From the NCBI GenBank assembly GCA_017525915.1, contig JAFXSC010000022.1, positions 62,001-126,000 on the forward strand: 64,000 nucleotides of DNA. The letters are read 5' to 3'. Shown piece by piece: positions 5,842 to 51,219 of the stretch (positions are counted from its first letter, which is position 1; each line of letters opens with the position of its first letter). This DNA comes from Ruminococcus sp. (GTDB lineage: Bacteria; Bacillota; Clostridia; Oscillospirales; Ruminococcaceae). Position numbers and translations under genes: made by a program. The notes under the pieces are model-generated. The model did not search any database, had not been told where the DNA came from, and worked only from the letters and a program-made list of their open reading frames with translations.

Positions 5842-8800
5842 TTATTTTGCGCTGTCTGAGCCGGCTGACTTCTTTCCGCCGCTGTCAGCAGGCTTTGCAT
5901 CGGTGCTGTCCGCGTCTGCGCCGGATTTCTGCTTCTTGTGGATATTGTCGATATCCTCGGTAGTTCCGCCGCCCTCGTCGTCCGGAGCACGGAACTCGCC
6001 CTTGTCAACAAGCCGCAGGAAGGCGTCAACGACGTCCTCCGCGAGCTGAGTTCCCCTGACCTCCTTCATAATGGAGACCGCCTTGTCGAAGTTCATTCTC
6101 TTGCGGTAGGGACGGTCGGAGTACATCGCGTCGAATGTGTCCGCGACCGCGATTATCTGGGCAACGCGCGGTATCTCGTCGGATTTGAGCCCCTTCGGAT
6201 AGCCCTTGCCGTCCGGACGCTCATGGTGAGCGCCTGCTCCGACTGCGAGCTCGGGCATTATGCTGATATCCTTCAGCGTGTTATATCCGAGCGCGGAATG
6301 TGATTTGATGATATTGAACTCGGTATCGGTGAGTTTTCCTGGCTTGTTGAGGACCTCCGGAGGTACGCCGACTTTTCCGATATCGTGGAGAAGTGCGATG
6401 TTGTGGTACTTGTCAACTGTCTCCTCATCGCAGCCGAGCTCTCTCGCAAGCATACAGGTATACTCCGCAACTCGCGTAGAATGGCCGTTCGTGTACTTAT
6501 CCTTCATATCAATGACCTTGGCGAAGGCTTCGACTATCTCACGGGTGAGCATTTTCTGCTCCTGCTCCTTCTTTCTGAACTTCTTTATCCTCATGCGGAT
6601 ATAGAAGAAAACTGCCAGACCGATAAGGAGGAGTATCCCGACTATGCTGAGTACTCTGAACCATGTTTTTTCGTAGAGCGATTTTTCCTTGATTATCTTT
6701 ATGGTGAGCGTCTTTGAACTGCGTCCCTGATCGTCAGAGACCTTCATGACGAACTTGTAGCTGCCGCCCTTGAGGTTGGTATAGTTTATCGGGTCGAGCT
6801 CGCTGCGCTTAACTGAAGTGCCATTGTCGTCGAAGCCCTCGAGCCAGTAGGTGACCTGCGGGTTTATGAGCGAGTAGTTGTAGACATAGCCGTAGATCGT
6901 CACCTTCTTGACGTCTGAGGATATCCTGAAATTTCCTGCTTCGTCAGGGTAGAGCTTATCGCCGTCAGCCTCAATGAAGGGAACGGCTATTTTAAGGTCT
7001 GCAATGTCCTCGATAGAGTTGTCTATGTTCACCTTTGCGATGCCTGTCGTACCGGAAATGTAGAGGTCGCCGGCAGCAGTGTATTCGCTGTATGAATTTG
7101 AGGTCGCAATGCAGGGCAGACCGTCGTCCCTGCCGTAATAGATAGTGGTTATCTCATCGTTCGCGATGAGCTGTTCGACATCCGCAACGTAGATGCCGTT
7201 GCTGCTGAGCACCCACATCTGACCGGAGCTGTTCTCGTAGAGGTCGAAGTTGTTAGAATAAGGAAAATTCTGTATCGTTGTTATATTGAAGCTGCTGTCC
7301 ATATAGGCAATGGAGTTGCTCGTGACTATCCAGAAGATATCGCGCGAGCGGTCGCGCTTCACCCTCATCACAACGTCAGAGCAGAGCCCGTCGTCAGTGC
7401 CGAAATGCAGCGTGTTTCCGTTCTTTATGACGTAGATGCCGTCACCGTCTGTACCGATGATAATTTCGCCGTTCACGCCCTCACAGACGGTCAGTATCTC
7501 CGTATTGGTGATGCCGGAGGATTCGCCGTAGACCTCTGTGACCCTGTCGCCGGTAATGTGAGCGACGCCGCCGGTGCAGGCAACGATGAACGAACCGTCA
7601 CTGCACTCATGCACAGTTCTCACGCGCTCGGAGGGCAGACCGTCCGCAGTCGTGAAGCGGAGTACCTTGCCGTGGTCGTATCTGACGAGCGCAGCCGTTC
7701 CGAAGGTCGAGAACCAGAGGCGGTCCTTGCTGTCACGAATTATCGAGCGTATCTTGCTTCCGCTGAGTATCTTTATAAGGTCGGTGCCGCCGCAGTCACT
7801 TCCGGAAGCGGTTTTGTCCTCAGTCACGTTTATCTGTGCAAGGGTGCCGTTTGCGCTGATGACTTTGAGACCGCTGTTCTTTGTACCGATAAAGAGCTTG
7901 CCCTCGGAAATGCAGGTCGAATAGACGACCTCGTCGGAAATGTAATATTTGTCGAAGATATCGGTGAACTGGTTCGGGACTATCTTCATAACGCCCTGCT
8001 GCGAGGAAACGAACCAGAGGTTGCCCTGATAATCTACCATTATGTCCTCAACGGAGGTCGTCATGGGGATATTCTCGATGTGTGTGAACTCTCCGCCGCT
8101 GAAAAATCCGATGCCATTGTCAGTGCAGACCCATGTCATATCGCCGATGCGTTCAATTGAATTGACGTAATAGAGCGGCGCTACGGACTGTTCCTCAAGG
8201 ACCGTGAGACCTTCCGCGATATTGCCGTGATACAGACCGGATTCCTTGTTTCCGATGTAGACCCAGCCGGGATTGTCCGGGTCGGGAAGGATAGAGTGTA
8301 TGTCAACGATGCCTGTCTTTTTGGCATTGAAGAAATTTGTGAGCCTGCCGTCCTTCACAGTGAAGATGTCGCCTTCTATGGTTATGCCGTAGATAACTCC
8401 GTCCGCGCCGGTTTTCAGCATTCTTATGTATTCGTTGTTTATCTGCGGCTCGTCCATCGTCTTCATCTGCATATCCGTACCGATAACGGCGATACCGCGT
8501 GTGGTCGCAACATATATGCTTCCGTCCGGAGCTTCCGTGACGGAGCGTACGGACAGTGCTTTCAGTCCCTCAGCCTTTCCGTAGTGGCGGTATTCACCGT
8601 TCTCCATAACTGCGAGACCGCTGTCGTTGGTGCCGATCCAAAGCCTGTTGCGGCTGTCAACATACAGGCTCACGACGCTAGAAAGGACGTAATTTGAGTC
8701 GATACGCACGAACTGGCTGCCGTCATAGCGGATAAGACCGCTGTAACTTCCTATCCAGATGAAGCCCTCCTCGGTCTGGGCAACAGCGTTTGCCTCAGCA

Positions 8801-46180: not shown

Positions 46181-47140
46181 TCAGAAGGACTCGTAATCGC
46201 GGACTATCTCCTTTGAATCCGATTCCATGCCGAGCCTGTTGAGGAGCTCCTGAGCAGCATTGTAGCCCATCTTCTTCTGTCTGTTGTTCATCGCTGCGAC
46301 CTCCAGTATTACCGCAAGGTTACGTCCGGGCTTTACGGGTATCGTAAGGGACGGCACCTTTACGCCGAGTAGCGATACATATTCGGTATCAACGCCCATA
46401 CGGTCGTAGACCTTCTCGGAGTTCCACTGTTCGAGCTCAACAACGAGGTCGAGCTTCTCGGTCATCTTTACGGCACCGATACCGAACAGGCGGCGTGCAT
46501 TGATGATGCCGATGCCGCGGAGCTCAAGGAAGTGGCGGATATTGTCCGGTGAGCTTCCGACAAGGCTTATGTTGGACACCTTTCTTATCTCGACCGCATC
46601 GTCTGCAACGAGCCTGTGTCCGCGCTTTACGAGCTCGATAGCCGTTTCGCTCTTACCTACGCCGCTCTCGCCGGTGATGAACACACCTTCGCCGTATATC
46701 TCGATGAGTACGCCGTGACGGGTAACTCTCGGTGCGAGCGTGAGGTTGAGGAATGCGATAAGTCCGGACATGAAGTTCGATGTGCTCTCCTTGCTTCTGA
46801 GGAGCGGCACCTCAAATTCCTTCGCAAGCTCGAGCATTTCCGCAAAATACGGAAGCTCCCTTGTGATTATGAGCGCGGGAATGCGCTGCGAGAAAAGCAG
46901 CTGGAGCCTGTCGCGCCTTGTTTTTTCGTCGATAGTTGAAAGATAGGCAAATTCCATCTTTCCGATTATCTGTATGCGCTCCGGGTTGAAGTATTCATAG
47001 AAGCCCATGAGCTGGAGACCGGGACGGTTTACGTCGTTCTCCTCTATCATTACATCATTTGCGTCCTTGTGTATATATATTACCTCAAGCTTGAATTCGT
47101 CGATCACTTTCTGGAGCGATACCTTGAAATTTTCTGCCAT
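46181..47140 (-). CDS. hprK: HPr kinase/phosphorylase
   Basis: A 319-residue protein. The P-loop GESGVGKS (near 155), DDAVEIRKV and LELRGIGIINARRLFG are the HprK signatures. It phosphorylates or dephosphorylates Ser46 of HPr in response to glycolytic intermediates and so sets carbon catabolite control in Firmicutes. CGGAGAA precedes the ATG. It follows the DUF4015-like gene by 34 bases, probably in the same transcript from rpe. Confidence 0.96.
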   Translation of the reverse strand: MAENFKVSLQKVIDEFKLEVIYIHKDANDVMIEENDVNRPGLQLMGFYEYFNPERIQIIGKMEFAYLSTIDEKTRRDRLQLLFSQRIPALIITRELPYFAEMLELAKEFEVPLLRSKESTSNFMSGLIAFLNLTLAPRVTRHGVLIEIYGEGVFITGESGVGKSETAIELVKRGHRLVADDAVEIRKVSNISLVGSSPDNIRHFLELRGIGIINARRLFGIGAVKMTEKLDLVVELEQWNSEKVYDRMGVDTEYVSLLGVKVPSLTIPVKPGRNLAVILEVAAMNNRQKKMGYNAAQELLNRLGMESDSKEIVRDYESF

Positions 47141-47174: not shown

Positions 47175-48371
47175 TTATCCTATTACATATGATTTGAAGC
47201 CGTAGTCCTTTATCACTTCCTTTGCTTTGAGGAGCTCGTCGGTGCCTATGGACGTACCCGAAAGGCGGATCGCTGTGTCAGGGTACGCGCTCAACTTATT
47301 CTTGATGAGCTCGAGCATTTTTGCGGTCTTGTCTGCGGCGGTGCCGTTGAAATCGTAGACCGTTGTGTCGGTCGCAACTCCGCCGCTTATCTCGTCAATG
47401 TCTATTTTCACTATCAATGACTTAACGTTAAGGTAGAGCGGTTCGTTTATGATATCCGCATTGTCCCTCAGCAGGTCGGAAGCCGATATCTCTATCGACA
47501 TCGAAGCGCCGTTCGCAACAGCCCTGTCGTAGAAAAGGTTTGCCGCGGAGGTGAGTGCCTGAAAGCGCTTCTTCGAGCTGAGTTCTTCCGAAAGCAGTTC
47601 AAGGTCGCTCCTGCGGAAGTTCGGGAATACCATATCCGTACAGATTATCCTGTCAAATCCGGCTGATGATACCTCGGTAACGATATCACCGATGTAGTTG
47701 ACGGCGGTCGAAGAATAAGGCGTCATCCACGGCTTTCCGCCTGCGTCGAGGTCGTTGTCTATCCACTGCTCACCGGTCGCGTAGGTCACATATCCGGCAG
47801 TCGGGTCTATCGAAGGCACCCTGCTGTCGTTGAACGCGCTGATGAGCGCCGCAGGTTTGTAGCCAGCGCTCTCGATGATGTTCACCACTTCGGAAAGCGA
47901 GATGGTATTCTGTACCGCGCCTGAATTGACAGCGTACATCACCGATGATGTATAGTAGATATTTCCGCCGCTTATTTTCAGCGGTATTTCGATATATTCA
48001 AAGTTCTGACCGGAAGGTATGCGGTTTAACGCTGCTTTCAGCGAGTCAGTGCTTATGAGGTCGCCCACTCTGAAAGCGGCAGCCTTGTAGACGGCAGGCT
48101 CGCGCAGATCAGTTTCTGCCGGTGGAACGCTCGCGTCCTCGGTACTGATGATGTAGTCGGTCGCAGCTGCTGTGGTCGAAGCCGAAGTATCGTCGCCCTT
48201 CTTCTTTGTATAGTTGACGATAGGCTCTGCCACGCTGTAACCGATGAAGCCTATGCCGCCGATGAGCAGCACTGTCAGTGCTACGGAAAGAGCTTTTCCC
48301 ATAGGTGTCTTGCCGTAGTAATTCTTTTCCTTGGTCTTATAGATTTTCCTTCCCTGTGTTCTTTTTCCCAT
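47175..48371 (-). CDS. Membrane-anchored DUF4015-like putative glycoside hydrolase
   Basis: A 398-residue protein. A basic cytosolic head, one membrane helix (about 27-48) and a Thr/Ser-rich linker precede an extracellular domain. Text such as FEYIEIPLKISGGNIYYTS, YKPAALISAFND, WMTPYSSTAVNYIGDIV and GFDRIICTDMVFPNF follows a TIM-barrel layout seen in DUF4015 proteins, which are predicted but unproven glycoside hydrolases. Catalytic acids cannot be assigned with confidence. The start at 48371 has AGGAGA. It lies 24 bases after the rnfA-like gene and upstream of hprK. Confidence 0.6.
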   Translation of the reverse strand: MGKRTQGRKIYKTKEKNYYGKTPMGKALSVALTVLLIGGIGFIGYSVAEPIVNYTKKKGDDTSASTTAAATDYIISTEDASVPPAETDLREPAVYKAAAFRVGDLISTDSLKAALNRIPSGQNFEYIEIPLKISGGNIYYTSSVMYAVNSGAVQNTISLSEVVNIIESAGYKPAALISAFNDSRVPSIDPTAGYVTYATGEQWIDNDLDAGGKPWMTPYSSTAVNYIGDIVTEVSSAGFDRIICTDMVFPNFRRSDLELLSEELSSKKRFQALTSAANLFYDRAVANGASMSIEISASDLLRDNADIINEPLYLNVKSLIVKIDIDEISGGVATDTTVYDFNGTAADKTAKMLELIKNKLSAYPDTAIRLSGTSIGTDELLKAKEVIKDYGFKSYVIG

Positions 48372-48395
48372 TTTTCTCTCCTGTATCAACAGCGG

Positions 48396-48968
48396 TTATT
48401 TCAGCGACCAGACCGCCATAGAAATTATGCCTATATATATCAGCATTGCCGGACCGCCTCTGAAAGACTGCGGCACTTTTGAAGAATTGAGCCTTCTGTA
48501 AGCTGCCGTGAGTATCAGTGCGGCAGCGATAAATCCGAGTCCGGCTTCAAATCCGAATCTGACGTACTCCCCGAAGCTCATGAGCGAGCTGTCCTCCTCT
48601 GCCTTGCCGCTCATGGTGAAAAGAGTTCCCATAACGGCGCAGTTAAAAGCGGAGAGATGAACATACTTCCTCAGCTGTGCATAGTCTCCGGGACGCGCGA
48701 AATACAGCAGGACAAGCAGCAGGATGTAGAAAACGCTGACCGCTGCGGTATAGAGCAGGAGTCGGAATTCCGAAGCTCCGAAAGGAAGCACGGAGTCGAC
48801 GATATAAGCGCAGCCTGTTCCGAATGTCGTGAACAGCATTATGCAGAATGCGATGCCTGTGAGATTCTTTCTGCTCTGCGCGGCTATGAAAAGCGAGCTC
48901 GTGCCGAGAGCCTGACTCAGTATCAGATTTGCGGCAAGAAATGCTATTATGTCATTTACCAGATACAT
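48396..48968 (-). CDS. RnfA-like membrane subunit, one cluster cysteine lost
   Basis: A 190-residue polytopic protein of the RnfA/NqrE family: six hydrophobic segments, the conserved SAFNCAVMGT, and VPQSFRGGPAMLI near the end. In canonical RnfA two Cys, one in LGLCP and one in TNCAVLG, help bind a membrane [2Fe-2S] cluster. Here the second is kept (C110) but the first is Ser24 in LGTSSL. The start lies inside the rnfE-like gene (17-base overlap) with AAAGGTGAT upstream. Third gene of a D-E-A set without B, C or G. Confidence 0.82.
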   Translation of the reverse strand: MYLVNDIIAFLAANLILSQALGTSSLFIAAQSRKNLTGIAFCIMLFTTFGTGCAYIVDSVLPFGASEFRLLLYTAAVSVFYILLLVLLYFARPGDYAQLRKYVHLSAFNCAVMGTLFTMSGKAEEDSSLMSFGEYVRFGFEAGLGFIAAALILTAAYRRLNSSKVPQSFRGGPAMLIYIGIISMAVWSLK

Positions 48969-49587
48969 TCATATCACCTTTCTCAGCGGAGCGGCTGCTT
49001 TTCAGAGAAATGCGGAGCTTTCTGTAAAGACCGCACATCAGTCCGAGAAATATGAATCCGCCGAAAGGTTCTCCGAGTCCGCTTATGAGCACATCAACGT
49101 CGGCGATGCGGCTGTTGATAGTGCCGTATGCGAGCAGCTCCCTGATGACGGCAGTAATGAGCATGACGAGGTCAAAGCCGAGTATATAGAAGAACAGTGA
49201 GGCTGTCATGCGTAGCCTTCCCATTCTGAAAAATCTTGTCTCTGACTGAAAAACTATCAGAGAGTTCACTGCGAGGAGCGGAAAGTATATACCTATCCTT
49301 GCGATGGCGTCGGGATAGACCTCCTCTGCGGCTGCTCTCACCGGAACGTATATCGTTGATGAGATGAGGGCGCAGGTCATTACCCTGAGCGTGTACGGCA
49401 GTTCCTTCGGTACGAATGAGGATATCAGCACGGACAGGAAAGTTATCACCGAAAACGCCCATATGAGCGCCTGTGCGTTCTTTATGGTATCTCCGCAGAT
49501 TATGACGGGAGATATGACCATGAGCCCTGAGAGAACCGGATTGTCAGCGGCTATGCCGTCGAACACCGAGCCTTTTCGTTCATTCAT
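48952..49587 (-). CDS. RnfE-like membrane subunit, both cluster cysteines lost
   Basis: A 211-residue polytopic protein of the RnfE/NqrD family. DNPVLSGLMVISPVI aligns with NNPxLVQxLGLCPxLAV, and GIYFPLLAVNSLIVFQ with GIFLPLIVTNCIIIGRAE; the Cys of each motif is Ser here (S26 and S109). Typical RELLAYGTI and GLGEPFGGFIFLG follow. The start at 49587 has GGAGG 9 bases upstream and overlaps rnfD by 8 bases; the longer frame would extend deep into it. Charged and Ser-rich C-terminus. Confidence 0.82.
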   Translation of the reverse strand: MNERKGSVFDGIAADNPVLSGLMVISPVIICGDTIKNAQALIWAFSVITFLSVLISSFVPKELPYTLRVMTCALISSTIYVPVRAAAEEVYPDAIARIGIYFPLLAVNSLIVFQSETRFFRMGRLRMTASLFFYILGFDLVMLITAVIRELLAYGTINSRIADVDVLISGLGEPFGGFIFLGLMCGLYRKLRISLKSSRSAEKGDMNVSGK

Positions 49588-50566
49588 GGAGCTCAGCCTC
49601 CTCTCCGTCCGCAGGTGCCTTTTCGAGTTCCTTCTTCTTTTCGGCTTCAAGCTCGGAATCTATCTTTCTTTCAAGGGACCTGATAGCGAGCGCTGCCGGA
49701 GTGAACAGGACGGCTGCTGCGATTATCGGATTTTCCTTAGCAGTTGTGAGAGTGAGAATGTAAGCCGTCACAGCGATAAGGAAGCCATAGTAGAATGCGA
49801 AGATGTTGCGCCGGGGAGCTATCCTCCTGTCGGCAATTATATATACCGAAGCAAAAAGCACCATGTTCGTGACGACTGAGTAGCCGAGCGAATCGACCCT
49901 TGAATAGCCGACCGGCGAAAGGTAAGCCGTGAGCCCTGTTCCGAGGAGTGAACCGAGAAATGCACCGGCTGAGATATCGCCTCTGAATATCAGCATCAGC
50001 GCCGAAATTAGCAGCAGAAGGACGCTTGCACTTCCGGCAGGACCGCTGAAATTGCCCATGAGTATCTCGAGGTCGGTATATCTGAGCTTACCGGTTATAT
50101 TGAATGCGTGTGAAGCGGAATGTACGAGGACATCGGGCTTTTCAAACAATCCGAGCTTTGTATGAGGCTCGGGGTACATGAGCACTTCCCTGCTCCACGA
50201 AGTCAGCGCAAAAACATAAGCCGCCGCTGCCGGAGCGAATATCATGTTACGTCTTCCGCCGAAAACGTTCTTTGTGACAACTACAGCGAACAGGCAGGTA
50301 TAACCGGCTATCCTCAGATCTATCGAGACCGGCAGCATAAGTGAGATTATGAGCGCGTCCGATATGCAGGTGAGGTCGTCGGCGGTGAATTTTTTACCCA
50401 TCAGGCGCAGGGAGATGAACTCCGCTGCAAACGAAACTGCCATGCAGGTACAAGCTGATGCAACGGCTCTCATGCCATAGTAGAAATAAGCCATCAGCTC
50501 AAGCGAAAGCAGGGTTATCATTATATCAAGCCAGATAAGGCGCTCTTTTTTAGCCTTTTTCAGCAT
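49580..50566 (-). CDS. RnfD-like membrane subunit without the usual FMN motif
   Basis: A 328-residue polytopic protein of the RnfD/NqrB family. NVFGGRRNMIFAPAAAAY and LMGNFSGPAGSAS match conserved regions around the flavin site. The covalent-FMN motif SGAT is not present; the nearest equivalent is HSAS at 149-152. In normal Rnf complexes RnfD carries FMN on Thr and moves ions. It starts 2 bases after the rpe stop with an AAAGG site, so it is coupled to rpe. The C-terminus is a Lys/Glu-rich cytosolic tail. Confidence 0.82.
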   Translation of the reverse strand: MLKKAKKERLIWLDIMITLLSLELMAYFYYGMRAVASACTCMAVSFAAEFISLRLMGKKFTADDLTCISDALIISLMLPVSIDLRIAGYTCLFAVVVTKNVFGGRRNMIFAPAAAAYVFALTSWSREVLMYPEPHTKLGLFEKPDVLVHSASHAFNITGKLRYTDLEILMGNFSGPAGSASVLLLLISALMLIFRGDISAGAFLGSLLGTGLTAYLSPVGYSRVDSLGYSVVTNMVLFASVYIIADRRIAPRRNIFAFYYGFLIAVTAYILTLTTAKENPIIAAAVLFTPAALAIRSLERKIDSELEAEKKKELEKAPADGEEAELHE

Positions 50567-50568
50567 GA

Positions 50569-51219
50569 TCAGCCTTTCCTCAGCAAACCTGCCGCCTCTG
50601 ACATATCATCGGCTCTGAAAAGATAGCTGCCGGAAACGAGGACGTTTGCACCGGCGTTTATTACTGTGCCGGCAGTATCGGCATTGATGCCGCCGTCCAC
50701 CTCTAAATCGGTGTCAAGACCGAGCTCAGATATCCTATTGCGGATAAGTCTTACTTTGTCGGCAGTCTCGGGAATGAAGCTCTGTCCGCCGAAGCCGGGC
50801 TCGACCGTCATGACGAGCACCATGTTCAGCATTTCAAGGTACGGGTATACAGCCTCGGCAGGAGTTGCGGGCTTTATGGCGAGTGCAGGCTTTGCACCGC
50901 TTTTTCTTATAGCCTTGATAGTATCCGATATATCGCTGCTGCTTTCAGCGTGGAATGAGATAATATCCGCGCCGGCTTTTGCAAATCTCTCCGCATATCT
51001 CAGCGGATCGGCTATCATGAGGTGTACATCGAGAGTCATGCCGGTAGCCCTGCGGACGCCTTCAAGTATAGGCAGGCCGTAGGTTATGTTATCAACGAAG
51101 GCACCGTCCATGACATCGAAATGGAGCATATCTATTCCGTTTGTCTCGAGCCTTCTGATCTCGCTTTCAAGGTTGAGCATATCCGCACTCAGCACGGATG
51201 CTGAAATATAATTTTTCAA
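50569..51219 (-). CDS. rpe: Ribulose-phosphate 3-epimerase
   Basis: A 216-residue TIM-barrel enzyme. HFDVMDGAFVDN, DVHLMIADP, MTVEPGFGGQSF and VDGGIN contain the metal ligands and catalytic Asp pair. It interconverts ribulose-5-phosphate and xylulose-5-phosphate. The start is TTG at 51219, needed to keep the conserved N-terminus (ISASVLSADMLNLE). It is the first gene of the long minus-strand run that continues through rnfDEA to hprK. Confidence 0.95.
   Translation of the reverse strand: MKNYISASVLSADMLNLESEIRRLETNGIDMLHFDVMDGAFVDNITYGLPILEGVRRATGMTLDVHLMIADPLRYAERFAKAGADIISFHAESSSDISDTIKAIRKSGAKPALAIKPATPAEAVYPYLEMLNMVLVMTVEPGFGGQSFIPETADKVRLIRNRISELGLDTDLEVDGGINADTAGTVINAGANVLVSGSYLFRADDMSEAAGLLRKG

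Follow-up and report, generated by a model that had tools for sequence, protein, structure and literature searches.

The window, a 64,000-nucleotide stretch of Ruminococcus sp. DNA, carries three adjacent genes for homologues of the Rnf subunits RnfD, RnfE and RnfA, which we call D′, E′ and A′ (Table 1). The first-pass annotation had named all three, and their overlapping coordinates and Pfam matches (PF03116 once and PF02508 twice, each above its cut-off) bear it out. The NCBIfam rnfD, rnfE and rnfA models match the same genes far under their cut-offs, at 69.5 of 207, 42.7 of 213 and 55.4 of 229 bits. The genes belong to a tightly packed minus-strand run, rpe-D-E-A-DUF4015-hprK-murB-rapZ-whiA, in which 2 bp separate rpe from D′; the rpe, DUF4015-like and hprK flanks are as first described, and murB, rapZ and whiA lie beyond them. 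By gene order, D′, E′ and A′ form a putative operon. The window's gene order recurs in a MAG of Ruminococcus flavefaciens (L038), whose D is 57% identical, and hprK lies downstream in this order there and at L040, L144 and L145. A second relative of D in named genome contigs, a distant Flavobacteriales match, was dropped.

Table 1. Genes of the D′-E′-A′ module and its neighbours in the window.
Feature	Coordinates	Strand	Domain match
D′ (RnfD/NqrB-like membrane protein, 328 aa)	49580..50566	-	PF03116, E 6.5e-36
E′ (RnfE-like membrane protein, 211 aa from inner ATG)	48952..49587	-	PF02508, 2e-21
E′, longer ORF (232 aa, TTG start)	49650 to 48952	-	
A′ (RnfA-like membrane protein, 190 aa)	48396..48968	-	PF02508, 1.9e-20
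DUF4015 protein gene	47175..48389	-	PF13200, 7.8e-10
rpe (ribulose-phosphate 3-epimerase), upstream synteny marker	50569..51219	-	PF00834, 2.7e-72
hprK, downstream neighbour in same gene run	46181..47140	-	PF07475/PF02603

The DUF4015 protein scores 38.8 bits against PF13200 (cut-off 27). It has a single N-terminal hydrophobic helix (29–64), behind which a structure model (pLDDT 87.5) places a glycosidase-like barrel; the best Foldseek matches of this model are to the PgaB glycosidase domain, with GH20 enzymes lower in the list. Inspection of a DUF4015 alignment led to no assignment of catalytic residues. The fold of D′ matches RnfD/NqrB first, and AmtB and urea channels next. Loop-charge analysis of E′ and A′ topology gave no clear pattern.

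In Acetobacterium woodii Rnf, a [2Fe-2S] cluster is held by C25 and C113 of RnfA together with C25 and C108 of RnfE, and RnfD carries FMN on T156 and binds riboflavin through N123 and D249 (PMC11889175). The C. tetanomorphum study, whose model has one iron between A and E, places Arg130 and Glu185 of RnfD in the FMN pocket (PMC9588780). We numbered ligand positions by A. woodii through HMMER alignments to the 9eri chains, and read those of the window's E′ and A′ by alignment to the canonical RnfE and RnfA of the same genome. RnfE Cys25 and Cys108 correspond to Ser47 and Ser130 of the 232-residue frame (S26 and S109 if translation starts at the inner ATG, 49587), and RnfA Cys25 corresponds to Ser24. 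RnfA Cys113 is retained as Cys110, the sole survivor of four; this alignment confirms the three serines and lone C110 of the first-pass annotation. A′ also has His104 where the canonical protein has Pro. The FMN loop of D′ reads VHSASHAF and has no SxAT, in keeping with the earlier observation of HSAS in place of the FMN-threonine motif. Which Ser occupies the Thr column differs between alignments and the register is unsure, so we counted motifs instead of columns for this loop. D′ has lost the FMN-pocket Arg and Glu and has Ala in place of riboflavin-binding N123; the riboflavin Asp (D249) is kept as D246.

The source genome, 99.9% complete, contains four PF02508 and two PF03116 matches. A separate, complete rnfC-D-G-E-A-B operon lies on another contig (C21), and all of its ligands are present, including the four cluster cysteines and SSAT in RnfD.

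To place the window genes among their relatives, we compiled homologous loci from related genomes. Of the 148 genomes in its family, 136 contain a match to the window's RnfE-like protein at E 1e-4, a figure that also counts canonical matches. We fetched the best locus of 60 of these 136 genomes, plus 20 and a further 20 loci at genus to class level; 30 short genus loci are the best 30 of the genus search. Loci with an RnfB match were classed as canonical and all others as subfamily, so that RnfB is absent from the subfamily by definition. Because best matches were sampled, the counts favour clear members; one in three subfamily rows comes from the window's genus, and separate counts were made outside it. 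A lone RnfE-like gene (L095) and two loci that are the window again (L039, L103) were excluded.

Across the subfamily, RnfE C25 is retained in 2 of 103 rows (L133, L134) and C108 in none of 103, against 28/28 and 27/28 canonical rows; no subfamily row keeps the two together. RnfA C25 is found in 0/101 rows (canonical, 27/28). RnfA C113 persists in 75 of 101, there without its partner cysteine, and in all 28 canonical rows. No other column of A′ has Cys in more than one-fifth of rows, and no conserved cysteine takes over at the ligand places. The FMN-pocket Arg and Glu of RnfD are each present in 0/102 subfamily rows and 27/27 canonical rows, and the loop motif [ST]xAT in 1/102 (L055) and 21/27, respectively. 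The riboflavin site D249 is Asp in 78 of 102 D′ proteins and Glu in 12 more, so non-covalent flavin binding is still conceivable. At the level of these alignments, the loss of the redox ligands is well supported.

Within the window's genus, the pattern is uniform: all 34 sequences (the window and 33 loci, mostly best-scoring) have Ser/Cys in A and Ser/Ser in E. Outside the genus, the residue at a lost ligand is often Ala, Thr or Gly rather than Ser. The expectation of serine in relatives therefore holds for the genus and only in part beyond it, and the possibility that the substitutions are limited to the window strain is refuted, as the ligands were lost before the window's lineage arose and are missing throughout the sampled subfamily in the order. 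As judged from these comparisons, the window set is a member of an old paralogous subfamily, not a strain oddity.

Beyond the order, we read 8 of the best class-level matches and 20 further best matches at phylum level, two of the latter coming from the class. None of those read was without both cysteines of RnfE, and wherever the flanks sufficed the operon is of canonical type; Cys-less sets may exist among other matches. One such operon outside the class (L182, genome G1005, RnfE at 1486–2136) has Cys108 replaced, with VVFAIILA for VVNCIILG. In another family of the order, an rnfCDGEAB operon (L142, at G163:C9:66000-80000, with RnfA at 6209–6865 and RnfE at 6792–7406; also L171) has Gly at RnfA Cys25 and RnfE Cys108 and keeps the other two cysteines and the RnfB and RnfG matches; this is a partial ligand loss on its own. 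The excluded lone PF02508 gene (L095, G068:C4:168500-184000, 7536–8141) is flanked by genes for a shikimate kinase and an OGG-like protein in a 0.7 Mb genome that is 97% complete, and neither RnfD nor RnfA has a match beside it.

Conserved positions remain in E′ and A′. Outside the window's genus, 62 of 69 E′ sequences have Arg or Lys at position 67, N107 is kept in 56, L103 in 53 and E115 in 42, and A′ N112 is kept in 65 of 67; within the genus, each of these five is found in 33–34 of 34. Among RnfE mutants of A. woodii, R67A, L103G and V106G did not grow, N107A was partly impaired, and E115A resembled wild type in growth (PMC11889175), so conservation of E115 weighs little. Most A′ positions linked to Na+ in A. 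woodii (T110, T111, P107, E88, Q85) carry other residues, indicating that the Na+ path is not simply kept; P107 is His in 70 of 101 A′ sequences (36/67 outside the genus). The subfamily also has residues of its own. Outside the genus, these include A′ Y81 (60/67, canonical 0/28) and Y178 (61/67, canonical 0), D′ F238 (66/68, canonical 1/27) and E278 (56/68, canonical 0), and E′ P103 (57/69, canonical 0/28). Together, the kept and the subfamily-specific residues look like those of a re-tuned rather than a broken protein.

The gene neighbourhood is conserved as well. All three genes are present at 70 of 72 subfamily loci, usually in the order rpe-(C′)-D′-E′-A′-DUF4015, and rpe lies at most 2.5 kb upstream of the module in 61 of 62 loci with room; the D-E-A set and its linkage thus recur in related genomes. 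C′ is a reduced RnfC-like gene found at 23 of the 72 loci, mostly on early branches. The earlier statement that B, C and G subunits are missing consequently stands for the window, where no homologue of RnfB, RnfC or RnfG was found at E 1e-4, but not for the subfamily as regards C. At two loci, a MecA-family gene (PF05389) on the opposite strand lies between rpe and D′ (L050, 6137–6787; L060, 9898–10461); PF05389 was tested at these two, and similar frames lie between rpe and the module at L041 and L085.

C′ raises the question of whether some electron transfer persists. In a remnant redox complex, D′ would hold non-covalent riboflavin and be reduced from a cytosolic donor through the [4Fe-4S] clusters of C′, with another reductase serving the window's lineage. 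All eight cluster cysteines, which make up two [4Fe-4S] motifs, are kept in the 15 C′ rows aligned, and D′ proteins accompanied by C′ retain the riboflavin Asn in 22 of 23 cases and the riboflavin Asp or Glu in 21 of 23. The RnfC-binding arm of D co-occurs with C′ as well: its Pro36, present in 27/27 canonical rows, is found in 18/23 subfamily rows with C′, 3/45 without it and 0/34 in the genus. However, none of the 15 aligned C′ rows has the GLGGAGFPT motif of RnfC, and many have a short N-terminal part. The riboflavin Asn falls to 27/45 in D′ without C′ and to 0/34 in the window's genus (Ser in 32, Ala in 1, a gap in 1), where C′ is absent from the loci read; the window's lineage appears to have lost C′ together with the RnfC-binding D arm. 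Moreover, without the A/E cluster, an FMN-bearing D and RnfG, no route for electrons across the membrane is left. We consider a remnant redox complex unlikely.

The position of the module bears on its origin. In two genomes of one related genus (L148, L150), a canonical rnf operon occupies the place between rpe and DUF4015; all six Rnf subunits were found at L150, and the RnfG match is missing at L148. This arrangement, seen in one genus only, suggests that an rnf operon was stripped stepwise. In a tree of D, E and A built with the ligand columns excluded, the 27 canonical rows fall on one side of a branch with SH-aLRT support of 100, and the forks where the subfamily joins the canonical rows are left open. 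The tree took 5 of the 29 other short genus loci. C′ changes at least four times on it, of which the starred branches force two (by a quick method, and with some long branches). Tree and synteny suggest an order of steps. With an rnf operon between rpe and DUF4015 as the starting point, RnfB, RnfG, the iron-sulfur ligands of RnfA and RnfE and the FMN site of RnfD would have been lost first, while RnfC was reduced to a shorter protein that keeps its two [4Fe-4S] motifs; later, in the window's lineage, RnfC, the RnfC-binding D arm and the riboflavin asparagine would have followed.

The DUF4015 gene is the most constant downstream neighbour, lying within 300 bp of the module at 57 of 66 subfamily loci with room. 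D′E′A′ could accordingly be a membrane scaffold or anchor that holds or regulates the extracellular DUF4015 glycosidase-like protein, with no need for transport, and the single hydrophobic helix and PgaB/GH20-like barrel of that protein would suit such a role. Against this, DUF4015 is missing from the other 9 loci, including six of the seven in one family (f22; L130–L133, L135 and L137, with DUF4015 present at L134). The gene also follows canonical rnfB within about 310 bp at 7 of 27 loci (L140, L146, L147, L148, L150, L153, L156), so the pairing of DUF4015 with Rnf is probably older than the loss of redox ligands. In addition, the conserved gate residues of E′ would be superfluous in a scaffold. 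A purely structural role is therefore improbable.

We then compared the distribution of the module with that of canonical Rnf. A divergent E (at least 180 bits; canonical proteins reach at most 135, and one second copy scores 173) is carried by 75 of 100 genus genomes. Among the 55 good genomes of the genus, 45 have both systems, 8 have neither and 2 are discordant, G342 with the canonical system only and G335 with the module only. One of the genomes scored as having both, G349, was so scored by its canonical RnfC only; it has one RnfE match and was not counted as module-only. Module and canonical Rnf still travel together in the genus, which may reflect a tie to Rnf or shared ancestry. One genus genome (L149, G353:C147:9500-23500) holds a second, very divergent module copy beside the usual one.

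Ten sampled genomes, chosen for a single RnfE-like gene in the search, have the module alone: each contains exactly two PF02508 genes, with RnfB not over the cut-off, whereas two control genomes have four PF02508 genes and RnfB. Four of the ten are at least 90% complete (G335, G299, G102 and G372, the last with 7% contamination). Module residues were read in six (G335, G372, G299, G076, G102 and G355, in G102 without A′), and G382, G391, G411 and G337 were classed from profile scores. The two PF02508 genes are adjacent in nine genomes and on two contigs in G102, a 1.0 Mb genome in which C′-D′-E′ lie together on C34 (L085) and the second PF02508 gene, presumably A′, on C22. Canonical RnfC over the cut-off was absent from all eight module-only genomes tested, G299 showing C′ alone. 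FMN_bind domains occur in five of these eight (not G382, G391 or G299) and ApbE in six (not G382 or G391); since most have FMN_bind or ApbE, we dropped missing flavinylation machinery as an argument.

These genomes bear on two ways in which the module might depend on canonical Rnf. Borrowing of B, C and G from the canonical operon is weakened by them. The module could also assist canonical Rnf in the same cell or serve as a decoy for it, for example through mixed complexes or assembly control, as its tracking of canonical Rnf in the genus might suggest. The ten genomes without canonical A/E and without RnfB over the cut-off argue against this, as does the loss of the RnfB-facing R154 of RnfA in 92 of 101 A′ sequences, and we regard it as quite improbable.

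Selection within the genus was estimated from pairwise dN/dS by a counting method, using pairs with dS below 1.5. Median values are 0.12 for D (14 pairs), 0.18 for E (50) and 0.19 for A (60), with maxima of 0.30 to 0.37. The A/E ligand places and A′ His104 are invariant in all 34 genus sequences, and synonymous change is free, with all four TCN codons in use at the two RnfE ligand sites. These values, low rather than elevated, agree with the earlier view that the genes are not simply decaying and indicate that the module is strongly constrained in the genus. A decaying paralogue retained by chance would account for the lost ligands, the distance between rows (terminal branches in the tree have a median length of 0.64 changes per column, all rows taken) and the absence of the module from some close relatives such as G135 and G370, but given the low dN/dS, the invariant sites and a single gene order in nearly all sampled loci, it is disfavoured and very improbable.

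What, then, might the module do? Its redox ligands are lost, yet it is kept under selection in many relatives, and it has therefore probably acquired a new, non-electronic job such as transport. The proposal of a repurposed non-redox membrane complex is supported by the loss of the ligand set across the sampled subfamily; that this complex is a transporter or channel is what we infer. We favour an RnfADE-like membrane complex that would work without electron transfer, as a gradient-driven or passive transporter or channel. As a whole, we hold this reading about as probable as its negation; its non-redox part is very probable, and its transport part somewhat less likely than not. Because the gate residues of RnfE are largely kept, E′ and A′ would retain the inverted pairing by which Rnf offers alternating access to Na+, and D′ would lie in the membrane with them. 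With the cluster gone, electrons would not drive movement, and the complex would most likely carry a small ion or solute down or up a gradient, as a secondary carrier or channel. Its partner, in place of RnfG, would be the DUF4015 glycosidase-like protein, tethered to the membrane and lying outside the cell.

The known systems nearest to the module differ from it in several respects. Homologues of RnfD, RnfE and RnfA are common to the window and the Rnf complex (RnfABCDGE; A. woodii 9ERI, C. tetanomorphum 7ZC6, A. vinelandii 8AHX), but the module has no B or G, its C′ is shortened in relatives and absent in the window, and the A/E cluster ligands, FMN-threonine motif and FMN pocket of D are lost. 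Na+-NQR, with its NqrBDE core, kept its flavins and A/E metal centre and gained NqrF, whereas the module lost its redox ligands, and no NqrA, NqrC or NqrF is found among the adjacent window genes (rpe, DUF4015, hprK, murB, rapZ, whiA). NQR/RNF-like two-subunit systems have been described in which an NqrB/RnfD homologue without the flavinylation Thr carries a fused NAD-binding domain (PF00175) and has a flavinylated NqrC-like partner, making two apparent subunits (PMC8238504; PMC10979944). D′ likewise has no flavinylation Thr; in contrast to those systems, the module contains A′ and E′, has no linked FMN-binding partner, and its D′ is PF03116 only. Finally, D′ resembles the ammonium and urea channels AmtB and dvUT in fold, with no sequence family match, and channels of that type are not known to have E/A partners.

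We found no description of a redox-stripped D-E-A set in the mainly open literature, searched by title and the start of the abstract, and the module is apparently an as yet undescribed variant of the Rnf-type membrane core. A bolder claim, which we think possible but doubtful, is that it represents a new transporter class: an Rnf-derived D-E-A complex without any electron carrier, in which E′ and A′ would use alternating access as a secondary carrier or channel, with a glycosidase-like protein as partner outside the cell. Members of this class would occur across the order to which Ruminococcus belongs, in some genomes on their own.

The route of Na+ through Rnf, by the A/E pair or by RnfD, is disputed between structural groups (PMC11889175 versus PMC9588780). 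A family that lacks nearly all redox parts and largely keeps the gate on the E side is a natural experiment on this route, and if the module conducts ions, the ion path would be separable from the electrons. For annotation, RnfA, RnfD and RnfE calls alone are no proof of an energy-conserving Rnf in genomes of this kind: in the ten module-only genomes PF02508 exceeds its cut-off and RnfB does not. If our reading is true, the module would stand next to NQR as a second outcome of rnf operon evolution.
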